From: Terriglobia bacterium
GTDB taxonomy: Bacteria; Acidobacteriota; Terriglobia; Terriglobales; Acidobacteriaceae
Assembly: GCA_020073465.1 (NCBI GenBank)
Contig: JAIQFC010000012.1
Location: 62,001 to 126,000 of the forward strand
Direction of reading: 5' to 3'
Length of the DNA stretch: 64,000 nucleotides
Shown in pieces: positions 1,532-38,270 of this stretch. The notes under the pieces were generated by a model. The model searched no databases. It had not been told where the DNA came from and saw nothing but the letters and a program-made list of their open reading frames with translations. The first letter of the stretch is position 1. Each line of letters begins with the position of its first letter. Both the position numbers and the translations under genes were made by a program.

Positions 1532-1608
1532 TCATGTGGGGACAGCCGCCCTTCGACTTCGCTCAGGGCAGGCTCTCGGCTGTCCAACCGGGCATAGCCC
1601 GGTCGGTT
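1532..1608. repeat. Intergenic double-hairpin repeat, copy 1
   Basis: The segment begins TCATGTGGGGACAGCCGCCC and forms two stem-loops: GGACAGCCG paired with CGGCTGTCC, then CCGGGC paired with GCCCGG. The same start and the same two hairpins recur at 4564-4614. This copy carries about 22 extra bases between the arms of the first hairpin. It lies directly after the gamma-glutamyltransferase stop codon. Confidence 0.75.
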
Positions 1609-4563: not shown

Positions 4564-4614
4564 TCATGTGGGGACAGCCGCCCTCGGCTGTCTGCCGGGC
4601 GCAGCCCGGTGCCT
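4564..4614. repeat. Intergenic double-hairpin repeat, copy 2
   Basis: This is the compact copy of the element at 1532-1608: the same 20-base start, then GACAGCCG paired with CGGCTGTC, then CCGGGC-GCA-GCCCGG. It lies between two convergent genes and may also help end transcription. Confidence 0.75.
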
Positions 4615-13163: not shown

Positions 13164-13207
13164 GAAGGACACGTCATCCGGGAGAGGGCATGTTCCCCAA
13201 GATGCCG

Positions 13208-13309
13208 TGTCATCCCGAGCAATGCGAGGGATCTAGGTTCTTGCCTGCGCCGCCTCTGCTCCACGGGTTAAGCAGAAACCTGGATCTCTTCGCTTTGCTC
13301 GGGATGACA
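13208..13309. repeat. Palindromic repeat, TGTCATCCCGAGC type
   Basis: A 102-base element with terminal inverted repeats of about 33 bases: TGTCATCCCGAGCAATGCGA at the left matches the complement of the right end (GCTTTGCTCGGGATGACA). It lies between glgA and dinB. It belongs to the same family as the element inside uvrC. Confidence 0.8.
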
Positions 13310-13360
13310 GCTGTCTGGAGAAACCCAAGCCCTCTCCTCCCTTGCTACAATCCGCTCAGC

Positions 13361-14632
13361 ATGTCCGTCGCATCCCACATGCCGGATTTTCCCCGCACCA
13401 TCTTCCACGTCGACATGGACGCCTTCTTCGTCTCCGTGGAGGAGCTTTACGATCCCGCCCTGAAAGGCAAACCCGTGGTGGTTGGCGGCCAACGCAATGA
13501 GCGCGGCGTGGTCTCGGCTGCGTCCTATGCGGCGCGCAAGTTCGGTGTGCACTCCGCCATGCCGTTGCGCACGGCGGCGAAGTTATGCCCGCAGGCCATT
13601 TTCGTTGACGGACACCCAGATCGCTACCGCGAGTGTTCGGAGAGAGTCCACAAAGTCCTGACGACGTTTTCTCCGCAAGTTGAAATGGCCTCGATCGACG
13701 AAGCCTATCTCGACATGACCGGCACCGCCCGCCTGCATGGCCCCCCGCTCAAGGCGGCTCATACGCTGCACCAGCGCATGAAGGCAGAGACGAACCTGAA
13801 CTGCTCCATCGGCATCGGGAGTTCCCGCCTCATCGCCAAAGTTTCCTCGGCCCAAGCCAAGCCCAACGGCGTTCTGTGGATTATCCCGGGAGAGGAAGCA
13901 AAGTTCCTCGCGCCACTCGACGTTCGGGAGATTCCCGGCGTCGGCAAGGTCATGGAGAGCCACCTGCACGATCTCGGAATCAAGAAAGTCGGAGACCTCG
14001 CACGTCTTGACGACTCCGAACTCGAGGAACGCTTTGGAAAGTGGGGCCTGGCGCTGGCAGGGAAGTCACGCGGGGAAGACGCTGGCGGATGGTTCGACAA
14101 CGAAGTCGGCGCCGATCTGGATGCCAAGTCCATCAGCCACGAGCACACCTACAACGAAGACACCGCCGACGTGGCCCAGCTTGAAGCCACGTTGATGCGT
14201 CTTTCCGAGATGGTCGGACGCCGCCTGCGTGAAGCCAACTTCTACGCCCGCACGCTTCAGCTCAAGCTGCGCTACAAGGACTTCACCACCATCACCCGCG
14301 CGCACACTCTGCCCGCACCTACGCAACTCGACAACGAAATCTTCGAGCACATCCGCACGCTCTTCCGCAAGAACTGGAAGAAAGGTACGCAAGTTCGTCT
14401 GCTGGGAGTGCACGCCGCATCATTTTCTTCATCCCAGCCCGATCAGATCAACCTGCTCGAAGGCACCCGCCAGCAGCGCTGGAAAGACGCCCTCGCCGCC
14501 GCCGACCGCCTGCGCGACAAGTTCGGCGAGTCGAGTGTCAGCCTAGCGAGTGGGATGCGCGGCAGCTTCCGCGAGCGCACGCACGAGAATCCCGCGGGTC
14601 TGCCGGGGAAGAGCAAGCGGAAACAGGACTGA
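13361..14632 (+). CDS. dinB: DNA polymerase IV (Y-family)
   Basis: A 423-residue translesion polymerase. Catalytic carboxylates are visible as Asp18 in FHVDMDAFF and Asp113/Glu114 in SIDEAYLD. The helix-hairpin-helix palm/thumb motif IPGVGKVMESHLHDLGI is also present. FFVSVEE carries the steric-gate position. The little-finger domain follows (RRLREANFYARTLQLKLRYKDF), with a basic C-terminal tail (GLPGKSKRKQD). The ATG at 13361 was chosen because the upstream extension of the frame runs through the repeat element; a second ATG six codons on (MPDFPRT) is also possible. A beta-clamp motif was not clearly seen. No LexA-type operator was recognised upstream. Confidence 0.93.
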   Translation: MSVASHMPDFPRTIFHVDMDAFFVSVEELYDPALKGKPVVVGGQRNERGVVSAASYAARKFGVHSAMPLRTAAKLCPQAIFVDGHPDRYRECSERVHKVLTTFSPQVEMASIDEAYLDMTGTARLHGPPLKAAHTLHQRMKAETNLNCSIGIGSSRLIAKVSSAQAKPNGVLWIIPGEEAKFLAPLDVREIPGVGKVMESHLHDLGIKKVGDLARLDDSELEERFGKWGLALAGKSRGEDAGGWFDNEVGADLDAKSISHEHTYNEDTADVAQLEATLMRLSEMVGRRLREANFYARTLQLKLRYKDFTTITRAHTLPAPTQLDNEIFEHIRTLFRKNWKKGTQVRLLGVHAASFSSSQPDQINLLEGTRQQRWKDALAAADRLRDKFGESSVSLASGMRGSFRERTHENPAGLPGKSKRKQD

Positions 14633-33974: not shown

Positions 33975-34375
33975 CCCGCGGTCCTTCCGCACGGGAAAAC
34001 GAGCAACTCAGGATGAAAGGCTTCCGTCCTCGCCGTAAGCTGAACGTGGAATCAACGGCTTAGCCGAATTGAAACGCAGGGCTGACGAAGAATCAGCAAC
34101 TTAGCTGGATGTGGGGTTATTCCATAAATAGCTACAAGCAATAGTATGAGTCTGCGTGCGTTTCCTTGCCGCTGCAGGCGTTCAGGGCAGAAGCGGATGG
34201 TCTGGGTGCCGCAGGGGGCCGTCGTCGATCCTGGGCCTTCCTGGCGCTGGGAAATGGCATTGTATGCGACCGGCCCCCGACGATTTCCACCTGCCCCAAG
34301 GCTCCAGGCGTCGACGCTGCAAAGCTAAGTACAATGGACTCAGCGACAACACATCAGCTTATCCCATCAAATCAA
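33975..34375. other. 401-base gap without recognised gene
   Basis: Short frames exist but have no ribosome-binding sites or family motifs. GGGGGCCGTCG near 34216 pairs imperfectly with CGACCGGCCCCC near 34268, which could form a long hairpin. Nothing else is seen; it separates convergent genes. Confidence 0.5.
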
Positions 34376-36379
34376 CTATTTCCGAAAGTGATCGCGGATT
34401 GCCTCTGCCTGTACCCGCGTCACCACCGCCGACAGCGCCGCCGTGTCCGCCTGCTTGACGGCCTGCACGCTGCCAAAGTGCTCGAGCAGGCGCCGAGTGG
34501 TGCTGGCCCCGACGCCGGGAATCTCCAGCAGTTCGGTCGAGCGGTCACGCATCTGCCGGCGCTTGCGGTGGAAAGTCACGGCAAAGCGGTGAGCCTCATC
34601 CCGAATCAACTGAACCAGATGCAGCACTGGAGAGTGATGATCAAGCGCAATTGGATCCTTCTCCTGTCCGTAGACGTAGAGGATCTCCTCGCGCTTGGCA
34701 ATGGCAGCCAGCGGCTGGTTGATGATCTCGATGGATTCCAGAGCTTCCGCGGCAGCATGTAATTGCCCCAGTCCACCGTCGATCAGCACCAGGCTCGGCA
34801 TCGTTTTCTTTTCCTGCTGCAGCCGCTTGTAACGGCGCGTGACCACCTCGCGCATCGAGGCGAAGTCGTCCACACCCTCAACCGTGCGGATGATGAACTT
34901 GCGGTAATCGGATTTCTTCATCCGTCCGTCTTCCCACACCACCATGGATGCAACCGTCTCGGCGCCCTGGATGTGTGAGATATCAAAGCATTCAATGCGT
35001 TTGGGTAATTCCGGCAGGCTCAACGCCTCCTGCAGCTCTTCCTGAATCTTCCGCGCGTTCGGCTTAAGCACGCGGAAGCGCTGATCGTACGACTGCTTCG
35101 CATTGTTGCCGGCAAGATCGATGAGCGAGCGCTTGTCACCGCGCAGCGGGACAAGAATATGCACCCGTGTGGGGCGGACACTCTTGTCCGCCTGCTGTTC
35201 AGAGAGCAGGTCTTCCAGCGCTTCCCGGTCTTCGAAGTCGACCGGAACGTACAGGTTTCGCGGCACGTGAGGCTGGCCGATGTAGAGCTGCTTCAGCAGG
35301 GCAGAGAAGAATTCCCCGGGATGAAAGGTTGTACCGAAGATTTCGTTGTCATCCTGAGGCCCGCGTTCTTTGCGCGCCGAAGGACCTATGGAGTTGTCGG
35401 CAGCATTGCTGAAGCCAGCGGACGCGACGATGCCAGCAGAGTGCATAGGTCCTTCAACGCCAGAAAACGGCGCTTCAGGATGACAATTGGGTGCAAGATA
35501 CTCACTTGATGCGATGTCCGGCAGATCCTCCCAGAAGAATTCCCGCCGGTCGACCATCTTGCCCCCGCGCATGTGGAACAAGTTCACGGCCAGCATGCCG
35601 TTTTCGAAGTGATAGCCAAAGACGTCGGCATCGTCGCCTTCGGCCGCTGCCATGCGTTGGCGCTCCTGCAACTGCTCCACGGTTGAGATCAGATCGCGAT
35701 ACCGCGCAGCCCGCTCGTACTCTTGCGACTCGGCGGCTTGCGCCATACGCGTCTGTAGCGAACGGCTCAGGTCGGTCGGTCGGCCCTCCAGAAACAACTT
35801 CACATCGCGCACGGCTTCCTGATAGACGTCAGCCGTGGTCAGGTCCTTCACACACGGCCCCAGGCAGCGCTTGATGTAGTACTGCAAACACGGACGCGGG
35901 TGAAAGCGCGTCAGGTCCACCTTGCACGACGGAATCAGAAAGTTGCGGTGGATCAGATCCGTGATGCGGTACGCCAGATTTGCAGGGAAGTAAGGCCCGT
36001 AGTAGTCGCTGCCGTCCTTGCGCAGGCGGCGCGTGACGTAGACGCGTGGCCAGCGCTCGCCCAGCGTGAGTTTTACGTAGGGATAGGTCTTGTCATCCCG
36101 CAGTAGGATGTTGAACCGAGGCTTGCGCTGCTTGATCAGGTTATTCTCGAGCGCCAGCGCCTCTTTGTTGTTGGCGACGACAATGTAGTCGACGTCGACC
36201 GCCTCGCGCACCAGCGTGCCGGTCTTGGCGTCCTCCCATCGGCCTTCGTGAAAATAGCTCGACACCCGGCTTCGCAGGTTCTTCGCCTTGCCCACATAGA
36301 TGACATCGCCCTCGGCGTTCTTGTAGAGATACACGCCGGGCTCGGTGGGAATGGAGCGGATTTTCTCCAGCAGGTCCAT
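34376..36379 (-). CDS. uvrC: Excinuclease ABC subunit C with in-frame insertion
   Basis: A 667-residue UvrC, longer than the usual 600-620. UvrC makes the two incisions in nucleotide excision repair. The GIY-YIG nuclease is at the N terminus (PGVYLYKNAEGDVIYVGKAKNLRSR). The four-cysteine-like region and UVR motif (AESQEYERAARYRDLI) follow. The RNase H-like endonuclease domain carries CFDISHIQG and LVLIDGGLGQLHAA, and there is a C-terminal helix-hairpin-helix (IPGVGASTTRRLLEHFG). Residues of about 298-345 are encoded by a 141-base palindromic repeat exactly 47 codons long. ATG 36379 gives the family start; a TTG lies four codons earlier. Confidence 0.93.
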   Translation of the reverse strand: MDLLEKIRSIPTEPGVYLYKNAEGDVIYVGKAKNLRSRVSSYFHEGRWEDAKTGTLVREAVDVDYIVVANNKEALALENNLIKQRKPRFNILLRDDKTYPYVKLTLGERWPRVYVTRRLRKDGSDYYGPYFPANLAYRITDLIHRNFLIPSCKVDLTRFHPRPCLQYYIKRCLGPCVKDLTTADVYQEAVRDVKLFLEGRPTDLSRSLQTRMAQAAESQEYERAARYRDLISTVEQLQERQRMAAAEGDDADVFGYHFENGMLAVNLFHMRGGKMVDRREFFWEDLPDIASSEYLAPNCHPEAPFSGVEGPMHSAGIVASAGFSNAADNSIGPSARKERGPQDDNEIFGTTFHPGEFFSALLKQLYIGQPHVPRNLYVPVDFEDREALEDLLSEQQADKSVRPTRVHILVPLRGDKRSLIDLAGNNAKQSYDQRFRVLKPNARKIQEELQEALSLPELPKRIECFDISHIQGAETVASMVVWEDGRMKKSDYRKFIIRTVEGVDDFASMREVVTRRYKRLQQEKKTMPSLVLIDGGLGQLHAAAEALESIEIINQPLAAIAKREEILYVYGQEKDPIALDHHSPVLHLVQLIRDEAHRFAVTFHRKRRQMRDRSTELLEIPGVGASTTRRLLEHFGSVQAVKQADTAALSAVVTRVQAEAIRDHFRK
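35346..35486. repeat. Palindromic element inserted in frame in uvrC
   Basis: The ends are TTGTCATCCTGA and TCAGGATGACAA. Each arm is about 45 bases and imperfectly complementary (both read TGTCATCCTGA...GAAGGACCTATG inward). Total length is 141 bases, so the uvrC frame is kept. It encodes the stretch between WEDLPDIASSEYLA and FHPGEFFSALLKQLY, which is not part of the normal UvrC family. It is related to the intergenic element at 13208-13309. Confidence 0.88.
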
Positions 36380-36443
36380 GGCGGGCCGCAACTTATTTTA
36401 TAGCCGGTCGCGAGAAGACATACGAGGAGCGTGGGAACATACG

Positions 36444-38270
36444 TCAGTGTGCCCGGCGTGCAAAGATGAGTTCCACTCCGCCGGTCACGCTCCGGCTGGG
36501 CATGATGACGCCCGGGACCTCCTCGTAGCCCGTATTGCTCAAGTTGGCGAGTTGGAGGTACGGCCGGATCACTCCGGCGTTGCGGGCAATCGCCAGGTCC
36601 CACACGGGATAAGCGCCGCGTTGAACGCGTTGCGTGATTCCCACGCCAGTCCGTGCCACTACCTGACGCCAGGAACCCGTCCACGCAAAGATCGCTTGAT
36701 GCGAGGGATAGTTGAAGGCGTAGCGCGACACCGCGCCGGGCAGGGGCGACTGATCGCCGTGAAGAAATGTGTAAGCCAGCTGACCCTGCTGGTCGCGACG
36801 CAGATGGAGGTCCGCATGGGCCTCGACCCCGGTGAAATGTAACTGGTGAATGTTGGTGGCCTGATAGGGCTGTCCCATGGCGAACTGCACATAGTCGATC
36901 ACGTTTGAATCCCAGCGCTGAAAAAAAGTGATTTCCCCGGAGACGCGCCCGCCGGGGTTCCAGTCACCGCCGGCCTCGAAACTCCACGCGGATTCGGGCT
37001 TGAGCAAGGGGTTCCCGACGTTTGCAGGGTCCGAGTAGTAAAGGTCCGTGTAGGTGGGCAGGCGGAAACCCCGGCTGACGCTGGCGTGCAACCTAAGGGC
37101 AGGCTTCAGCCACAAGCCTCCGGCAACCGCGGGTGTAAATACGGAAGTTCCGCCACTGAAGAGCTCTTCGCGCCCGCCTGCCGAAAGCGAGAAACGCCGC
37201 AGCCCACGAAAGTCCAAGTTGGCGTATACCGCCTCGCGATTGCGCGCGTGATGGCCCAGATTGTTGCTGTCGATCGTGTCTCCCTGGCCCTCGGCTCCGT
37301 AGGCCAGCGTCGAGTTATCGCCTAGCGACTGGCGGCGACGCAACGCAGCCTGCCAACTTTGGTCGACGTGATTATTCTCATAAATGGCGGGATCATCACG
37401 AAACAGCACGAACTCGTCACTGTGGCGGCGATAACCGAACGCGACGGCGGTATTTTCCCCGAGCTCCTGCTGTGCGGCAGCGAACCAATTCTTGGTGCGC
37501 TCCCAGGAGGGGAAGTTTCCGTAGAACTGGTCGGCGCCGAAGGGGCGATCGCTCCCGGCCAGCAGCACATCTGTCGTCCCCAGGGTTGACTTGAAACGCG
37601 TTTCCGAGGAGGCCGTGGTGCTTCGGAAGTCGCGGTCGGCACGGAATCCGGTGGAGAAGTCACGGTCGGCTGCTATGGTTTCCGACCAATCCTTGATCAG
37701 AAACGACCCTAAGACATGCTCCTGGTTGAACCCGTCATTGCCCGCCCCTGCCCTCAGACGGATTTCTGTCGCCTTAGCCGGAGCGGTGATGAAGTTGATG
37801 GCACCACCCATGGCGTCGGCACCGTAGAACGTAGAACCTGCCCCGTGCAAGACCTCGATCCGCGAGACAGCTTCCAGCGGCACCGCGATGTCCATGTCGT
37901 GATGCGCTGTCTGCGCGTCGTTAAGCCGCAATCCATTCAGCAGGACCAGGTTCTCGGCGAAGGTTGAACCGAGAATGGACAGGTCCGCCTGCACGCCATT
38001 GGGCGCGCGCTGTTGCACATCGATTGCAGGGTCAACGTGCAGGTAATCAATCGCAGAGCCAAACAGCAGAGGGTCCTGCCGGGTGTCCAGGGACTCGACC
38101 GAGCGGTCGCTTTCTGAGAGCGGGGTGGGAGCGAAAGTGCCCGTCACGACGATCGTCTCCGTCACCGTAGGAAGCTTCGGAGGCGGAGCAGCCCCGGGGG
38201 TGGGAGTCGTCTGCTGGCAAAGGGCGGCGGACGAGACAAGTGTGAACAACAGACTGGCTTTGCGGAACAT
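36444..38270 (-). CDS. TonB-dependent outer-membrane receptor
   Basis: A 608-residue protein of BtuB-like size. A signal peptide is followed by a TonB-box-like TETIVVTGT. The plug domain contains NLVLLNGLRLNDAQTAHHDMDIAVPLEAVSRIEVLHGAGSTFYGADAMGGAINFIT, a very good match to the vitamin B12/colicin receptor plug. The remainder is a beta-barrel with alternating residues ending in ELIFARRAH. The last residue is not aromatic as in the usual barrel end. It lies 64 bases upstream of uvrC on the same strand but is unlikely to share function. Substrate not known; cobalamin or a siderophore is possible. No riboswitch was recognised in the 92-base leader region. Confidence 0.88.
   Translation of the reverse strand: MFRKASLLFTLVSSAALCQQTTPTPGAAPPPKLPTVTETIVVTGTFAPTPLSESDRSVESLDTRQDPLLFGSAIDYLHVDPAIDVQQRAPNGVQADLSILGSTFAENLVLLNGLRLNDAQTAHHDMDIAVPLEAVSRIEVLHGAGSTFYGADAMGGAINFITAPAKATEIRLRAGAGNDGFNQEHVLGSFLIKDWSETIAADRDFSTGFRADRDFRSTTASSETRFKSTLGTTDVLLAGSDRPFGADQFYGNFPSWERTKNWFAAAQQELGENTAVAFGYRRHSDEFVLFRDDPAIYENNHVDQSWQAALRRRQSLGDNSTLAYGAEGQGDTIDSNNLGHHARNREAVYANLDFRGLRRFSLSAGGREELFSGGTSVFTPAVAGGLWLKPALRLHASVSRGFRLPTYTDLYYSDPANVGNPLLKPESAWSFEAGGDWNPGGRVSGEITFFQRWDSNVIDYVQFAMGQPYQATNIHQLHFTGVEAHADLHLRRDQQGQLAYTFLHGDQSPLPGAVSRYAFNYPSHQAIFAWTGSWRQVVARTGVGITQRVQRGAYPVWDLAIARNAGVIRPYLQLANLSNTGYEEVPGVIMPSRSVTGGVELIFARRAH

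Follow-up and report, generated by a model that had tools for sequence, protein, structure and literature searches.

The uvrC gene examined here carries in its interior a 141-base segment with inverted repeats at its ends, which raises the question of what this segment is and how a palindromic repeat comes to reside within a conserved coding sequence. The gene lies in a 64,000-nucleotide stretch of DNA from a Terriglobia bacterium (contig JAIQFC010000012.1), called the window below, and the nearest named relatives of the source genome are Candidatus Sulfotelmatobacter and other Acidobacteriota. The features concerned are collected in Table 1.

Table 1. Features of the window, with positions counted from its first letter
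Feature	Position	Strand	Basis or context
Family B unit with nested CCCTTCGACTTCGCTCAGGGCAGGC palindrome	1533..1604	+	Just after an ORF ending at 1528
Family B unit	4565..4612	+	Between convergent ORFs
Related inverted dimer, TGTCATCCCGAG variant	13208..13309	.	Between two ORFs
uvrC	34376..36391	-	671 codons; ORF list, NCBIfam PRK14669 above cut-off, Pfam domains
Further uvrC palindrome GGGGCGGACACTCTTGTCCGCC	35171..35192	+	One of 42 exact genomic copies, control 0
Family A element, 141-bp inverted dimer of a TGTCATCCTGA-tagged palindrome	35346..35486	-	Sequence, folds, genomic half-sites
Arm 1 of uvrC element, TGTCATCCTGAGGCCCGCG...GCGCGCCGAAGGACCTATG	35346..35390	+	
Arm 2 of uvrC element, inverted, CATAGGTCCTTCAACGCCAGAAAACGGCGCTTCAGGATGACAA	35444..35486	+	

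The outer arms of the segment (35346-35360 and 35472-35486, 15 nt) are 93% complementary, and the inner arms (35374-35390 and 35444-35460, 17 nt) are 88% complementary. The 141-nt element folded at -39.4 kcal/mol as DNA (z = -6.4) and at -76.7 kcal/mol as RNA (z = -8.2), values that were equaled by 0 of 200 shuffles in either case. The half-site GTCATCCTGAG occurs exactly 208 times in the 5.9-Mb genome, and its reversed control does not occur at all. A sequence-only reading of the window had described a palindromic element at this position and a related copy elsewhere; both are borne out, the latter being the inverted dimer at 13208-13309. The ORFs that border this dimer are ones we take to be glgA and dinB. 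The ORF taken for dinB (window 13190-14632) is open upstream through the palindrome, which could give a false N-terminal extension in automatic annotation.

The reading frame of uvrC runs through the element, as had been claimed, in one of the two frames, among six, that are free of stops. By arithmetic, the element encodes residues 302-349 (CHPEAPFSGVEGPMHSAG...GPSARKERGPQDD) and not about 298-345 as originally given. The start codon in the ORF list is TTG, with an ATG 4 codons further in. The protein scored 1111.2 bits against NCBIfam PRK14669 (cut-off 1108), and Pfam matches to GIY-YIG, UVR, two RNase H-like, and HHH domains were obtained, consistent with the claim that UvrC is intact on both sides of the insert. 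Since the element is open in frame, UvrC would gain about 47 loop residues, presumably as stable protein.

The segment had been placed between the UVR and RNase H-like domains, a position that the domain matches do not support. The match to PF22920 (UvrC Ribonuclease H-like domain) is split into two stretches, the better of which covers profile positions 41-115 and residues 357-437. An AlphaFold2 model built from 26 aligned sequences, of only fair quality (mean pLDDT 73, pTM 0.41), assigned residues 294-354 a pLDDT of about 30 and no secondary structure and put this stretch between strands at 254-287 and a helix at 358-370; three further short stretches also fell below a pLDDT of 50. From the split match and the position of the low-confidence stretch, the insert most probably falls in a loop, predicted to be disordered, of the RNase H-like domain PF22920. 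A structure search with the model returned UvrC pieces first, as expected, followed by Argonaute and endonuclease V chains. An intein was considered and rejected, the segment being about 47 residues long and predicted to be disordered, with no splicing domain among the UvrC Pfam matches. An Rfam search of 34300-36500 gave a single sub-threshold match (HOXA11-AS1_3, 35222-35320, E = 0.61) that was taken as chance.

Matches to uvrC were obtained in 60 of the 61 genomes searched, those in a few genomes being distant GIY-YIG relatives only. The genome matches, further DNA stretches, and 80 named loci gave 99 distinct loops after merging of those with identical loop and flanks; the uvrC pieces L067 and L068 of genome G016 lie outside this set, L066 was left out of the tree, and L032, which has one in-frame stop, was left out of one protein alignment. 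Family A, the TGTC-tagged family to which the element belongs, was found in the same loop, orientation, and frame at 11 of the 99 loci (CHPE...SEG...PSAR...QDD). The segment is therefore not unique to this genome, and in all 11 loci the peptide is accompanied by palindromic DNA, so that no relative was found to carry the same segment without the palindrome. Loop length was divisible by three at 98 of the 99 loci, the exception being L066, a frameshifted copy at a contig end.

These observations bear on two readings in which UvrC would not contain the segment at all. Ribosome bypass or RNA removal across the hairpin, which would leave the segment untranslated, is very improbable; the coding strand does carry a long stable hairpin, but no stop interrupts the uvrC frame within the element, and a bypassed element would have no need of loop lengths in multiples of three. 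That the element is an assembly or sequencing artifact is scarcely credible. Repeats at such a site could misassemble, and one relative, L066, is frameshifted, but the family A copies occupy 11 distinct uvrC loci in separate assemblies and are always in frame.

The loops of the relatives also contain other repeats. As labeled by eye, a second, GTGG-tagged family (family B) is present in 22 of the 52 loops that form rows of the uvrC tree, with the peptide HVGTGAPARPGEQSSPA and DNA of the form CATGTGGGGAC-hairpin-GTCC-hairpin; at least 22 of the 99 loops hold this family. Two loops outside the tree (L142 and L171) look B-like as well. By the same labels, five rows have a third peptide (C) resembling VWVRVSDPD, two loops (L032 and L036) contain both A and B, and the loops of L117 and L061 resemble family A remnants. 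No recognized repeat was seen in the loops of L047, L049, and L056 within the genus (34-44 residues) or in those of its kin L138, L141, L147, L148 (81 residues), and L150, which suggests that loops can lengthen or erode by other routes as well. In distant outgroups, the loop is mostly minimal, with a few of 11-39 residues. In L038, the uvrC of genome G030, the matched portion of the C-terminal region exceeds that of relatives by about 16 codons, possibly because of another insert.

On a tree of the 52 rows built without the loop, the by-eye labels required 11 changes for the 11 family A rows, 12 for B, and 4 for C, with 13 of the 49 inner branches weakly supported. Sister species often differ in loop content, an example being the pair formed by the present uvrC (L031, family A) and L037 (family B), which is supported at 100/98. 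Such a pattern can result either from repeated insertion or from an old insertion that was repeatedly lost and replaced. A single ancient family A insertion in the ancestor of the genus, followed by repeated loss, decay, and replacement by B, has a little under an even chance of being correct. All 11 uvrC copies share one orientation and frame, and in each the arm with the long hairpin is the 3′ one on the sense strand, a uniformity that favors one old insertion with many losses. Moreover, L031, L033, and L104 have a longer, similar spacer in common, yet lie in different parts of the tree. Phylogenetic analysis of 11 uvrC, 4 Type ISP, and 18 dispersed family A copies, which are too short for the tree to be resolved, did not reject a single uvrC clade (p-AU = 0.192). 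Against this stand the 11 changes that 11 rows require and the similarity, in dispersed family A copies too, of the spacer parts outside the extra stretch. Because of strong divergence in the loop sequence on either side, comparisons of empty and filled loops did not fix the boundaries of the uvrC insertion to the base, and they gave no demonstration of a target duplication.

Elsewhere in the source genome, family A is rarely found inside genes. Clear pairs among the sampled loci read TGTCATCCTGAG-[variable hairpin]-CGAAGGACCTATGCA ..., followed by the inverse. Among 98 sites sampled with the half-site pattern and one mismatch allowed, 17 are plain inverted dimers and 76 are single; relaxed matching gave 32 pairings, some of which are alternatives for one site. 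An ORF of at least 100 amino acids spans the site in 33 cases (39 ORFs), and with one ORF from an open-ended scan, 40 were searched against Pfam. No domain above cut-off lay around the element at any of the 98 sampled sites. In three of the 40 ORFs (L231, L188, and L028), a domain exceeds its cut-off, and there the element is close to the N terminus and precedes the best matched stretch (one of two stretches at L188); at L214 a sub-cut-off AAA match precedes the element. Of 14 family A ORFs read in relatives, most have the element at one terminus or are themselves doubtful; a further internal position is clear only for Type ISP restriction-modification enzymes, in which the element is in frame (long frames at L308 and L299, short frames at L309 and L310) and falls, according to Pfam matches on L308 and L299, in the C-terminal specificity region.

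Family B, and not family A, is the frequent gene invader in this genome. The family B sequence TGTGGGGACNGNCGC, in which GTGG adjoins the hairpin, has 54 exact genomic copies (control 0), all of which entered the census (30 + 24, two of them in the window); the criteria for a spanning ORF differ slightly between the A and B censuses. A spanning ORF was present at 31 of the 54 sites, and at least one was scanned with Pfam at 30 of them (L381 was left out, and several second, mostly antisense ORFs were unscanned). At 13 of the 54 sites, family B lies in frame in a conserved gene. Pfam matches surround the site or lie on both sides of it in nine of these (MetH, UvrD, SelD, hydantoinase A (hyuA), PurL, an ABC exporter, LpxB, MutS, and, presumably, a DCC1-like protein with two matched stretches) and lie only downstream in four (MutS2, ParB, an oligopeptide ABC ATPase, and a FAD-binding subunit). 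The in-frame units in purL, uvrD, mutS, mutS2, metH, selD, and lpxB are those of loci L285, L271, L392, L297, L269, L275, and L390. That repeats may add protein segments, an idea of the sequence-only reading that follows the Rickettsia elements, would fit both family A in uvrC and these 13 sites.

The two families differ in coding potential. Of 30 family B units of 48 bases, 20 lack stops in every one of the six frames (34% in shuffles), as opposed to 0 of 101 family A half-units (10% in shuffles), counts in which copies within a family are not independent. This difference in openness is a plausible reason why B is commoner in genes than A. Several family B units (window 1533-1604, L289, L293, and L297) have, nested in their hairpin loops, a palindrome similar to CCCTTCGACTTCGCTCAGGGCAGGC or to its inverse, which is also seen in the uvrC loops of L039 and L162. 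The ORF at L300 (G030:C72), which is presumably MiaB-like, contains in frame EPALSLPKGIS, a peptide resembling another repeat.

The turnover seen in uvrC recurs in two other genes, for which 30 loci each were compared, one PurL and two UvrD sequences being dropped for frameshifts. One PurL loop varies from 0 to 30 residues across the genus and is filled in part by B, in both orientations, or by other palindromes; the empty allele is present in four relatives, and four outgroups have 0-4 residues. In UvrD, several loops are filled likewise, one of them in most relatives.

Both families are concentrated in the genus. The family A half-site occurs 2-226 times in 36 same-genus genomes and 0-4 times in 24 outgroup genomes, except for two with 17 and 44, and its reversed control occurs at most four times in every genome counted. 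Family B occurs 2-176 times in the 36 genomes, once in one outgroup, and in none of the other 23. Most of the genomes compared are metagenome assemblies. The correlation between genomic copy number and uvrC loop length is weak (Spearman coefficients over 32 genomes, uncorrected for kinship, of 0.24 for A, p = 0.19; 0.18 for B, p = 0.34; and 0.30 for A + B, p = 0.10). Genomes with B in uvrC hold more genomic B (one-sided p = 0.012), and the corresponding comparison for A is borderline (one-sided p = 0.051), both uncorrected for kinship.

Inspection of Y1 transposase genes provides a possible means of movement. The genome has 18 Y1_Tnp matches, two of which are overlapping pieces. B-like inverted units, with a GTAG variant at one end, flank one of the 18 (L096), and another palindrome family flanks L093. 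When UvrC and PurL loops were compared with the flanks of the Y1 genes of the source genome, 17 of 73 matched at E = 0.01, as against 1 of 73 reversed loops; the comparison covered the 13 of 30 PurL loops that matched the pattern used and the 12 of 18 Y1 matches for which flanking arms were entered. Some of the 17 matches are short, and those of L039 and L162 are to a nested palindrome. RAYT-type mobility of B and related units is thereby supported, not proven. None of the 18 Y1 matches has a close inverted pair of family A around it. With a loose pattern, some half-site occurs at 13 of the 18 loci, and at L082 one lies 0.5-0.8 kb away on each side; among these 18 matches, family A is without a recognized transposase.

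The further palindrome at 35171-35192 shows that the element is not the only repeat in this uvrC. It encodes part of the residues QADKSVRPT, a genus-specific addition, and UvrC proteins of the genus mostly have about six extra residues here relative to outgroups. One Y1 transposase gene has a copy of this 42-copy family on each side. In the 32 of 39 rows that are 30 bases long, changes on both sides of the stem were found in 15 cells, compared with 6.8 in shuffles (0 of 500 as high).

Such paired changes could be taken to mean that the inserts are adaptive, with the loop or an mRNA hairpin tuning UvrC through translation pausing, altered repair, or a mutator effect, and with repair genes as preferred targets. 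The repair genes uvrC, uvrD, mutS, and mutS2 are among those carrying repeats here, the mRNA hairpin of the uvrC element is very stable, and Di Nocera et al. 2013 (PMC3733652) speculate in the same direction for REPs in UvrABCD, RecBCD, and polymerases. This explanation is nonetheless quite unlikely. The sequence of the uvrC loop is unconserved, sister species have different loops, several relatives have a very short one, and repeats also reside in the non-repair genes metH, selD, purL, lpxB, and hyuA. The other pairing measures for 35171-35192 were weak (4 pairs changed on both sides versus 2.6, 44 of 500 shuffles; 7 pair types versus 7.8, 483 of 500), and relatedness or exchange between repeats could be the source of the paired changes that remain.

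Taken together, we consider it probable, at roughly 80%, that the uvrC segment is a REP-like, TGTC/CGTC-tagged inverted dimer in a disordered loop and one case of a genus-wide process. Observed directly are the palindrome, its copy number, the frame, the intact UvrC models, the filled loop in relatives, the PurL and UvrD pattern, and the resemblance of some inserted families to palindromes around Y1 genes. According to this proposal, a REP-like palindrome dimer would have entered the disordered loop of the RNase H-like domain of UvrC by insertion or have been inherited there. Palindromic families of high copy number, several of which are present in Candidatus Sulfotelmatobacter and its kin, would land in genes, GTGG-tagged units being moved by RAYT enzymes on single-stranded DNA and family A by another or a borrowed mover. 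The survivors would be copies that preserve the frame and lie in loops able to tolerate them, and loop content would then turn over between species. In-frame survival in tolerant loops would be the main force, with the inserts presumably made as stable protein, and the segments would most likely persist mainly by tolerance and not by selection. A bolder version, in which a RAYT-driven supply of stop-poor palindromic units acts as a standing generator of protein loops, with the exposed loops of UvrC, UvrD, PurL, and other core enzymes filled, emptied, and refilled with units of different families from one sister species to the next, and with some of these loops, perhaps in repair proteins first, now useful, is a somewhat unlikely extension that we offer tentatively.

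In-frame palindromic elements have so far been discussed mainly for Rickettsia. In the group of this soil acidobacterium, repeats dispersed through the genome seem to contribute new pieces to conserved proteins again and again. Two long-standing questions, how repeats get into genes and whether their translated products can become functional protein, are open to test in a genus that has hundreds of copies, both empty and filled alleles of a single loop, and linked transposase genes.

Intragenic REPs, Rickettsia palindromic elements (RPEs), and REPs in repair genes are already known; what appears to be new, to the extent of the searchable literature, is that several families occupy the same orthologous loop across a genus of Acidobacteriota. 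A title and abstract search, in which subscription papers were mostly beyond reach, found no report of in-frame repeats in Acidobacteriota or in the genus. The available parts of the 2013 survey describe intragenic REPs in several species, REPs in UvrABCD, and a CGTC-tagged superfamily in five phyla, Acidobacteria not among them (PMC3733652); in those parts, this phylum is named only for transposase genes flanked by terminal repeats and, in the accessible text of PMC6006769, only for Y1 classes.

The CGTC-tagged REPs are described in the same survey as tagged at one end with CGTC or TGTC, next to AT pairs that form the base of the stem, and as having a stem of 8-9 bp, a loop of 4-5 nt, an unpaired tail fitting CCA, a predominance of inverted dimers, and no association with a transposase gene (PMC3733652). 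Family A resembles this description in its TGTC tag variant, AT stem base, occurrence of inverted dimers, high copy number, lack of a linked transposase, and repair-gene members. By eye, its units read TGTCAT...AT, the tag being followed by AT at the stem base, and its short arms are of roughly the size described; the bases next to the stem, again by eye, are mostly CTA or CTG. It differs in that the hairpin arms of the uvrC copy and many others are longer, often much longer, and variable, in its phylum, and in that the uvrC loop hosts a second kind of palindrome as well. Family B is closer to the GTAG/GTGG REPs with RAYT and TIRYT genes, having GTGG ahead of the hairpin, B-like inverted units around a Y1 gene, and the sequence GGGGACAG, consistent with the motif GGGGWSAS that has been reported for TIRs (PMC3733652, PMC6006769); it is unlike them in its frequent in-frame residence in conserved genes and its six-frame openness.

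Compared by description rather than by Rickettsia sequence, the uvrC element shares with RPEs a length of about 150 bp, a palindromic structure, in-frame residence in unrelated genes, and a conserved peptide (PMC10969869). RPEs are recognized as palindromes some 100-150 bp long that lie in frame within protein-coding genes, and both the 141 bp in uvrC and the copies in the Type ISP enzymes of relatives are of this kind. That 2024 review regards the same process as conceivable in prokaryotes other than Rickettsia (PMC10969869). The present case differs from RPEs in its phylum, in the presence of several families in the loop of one orthologue across a genus, and in having a GTGG-tagged family as the commoner gene invader.
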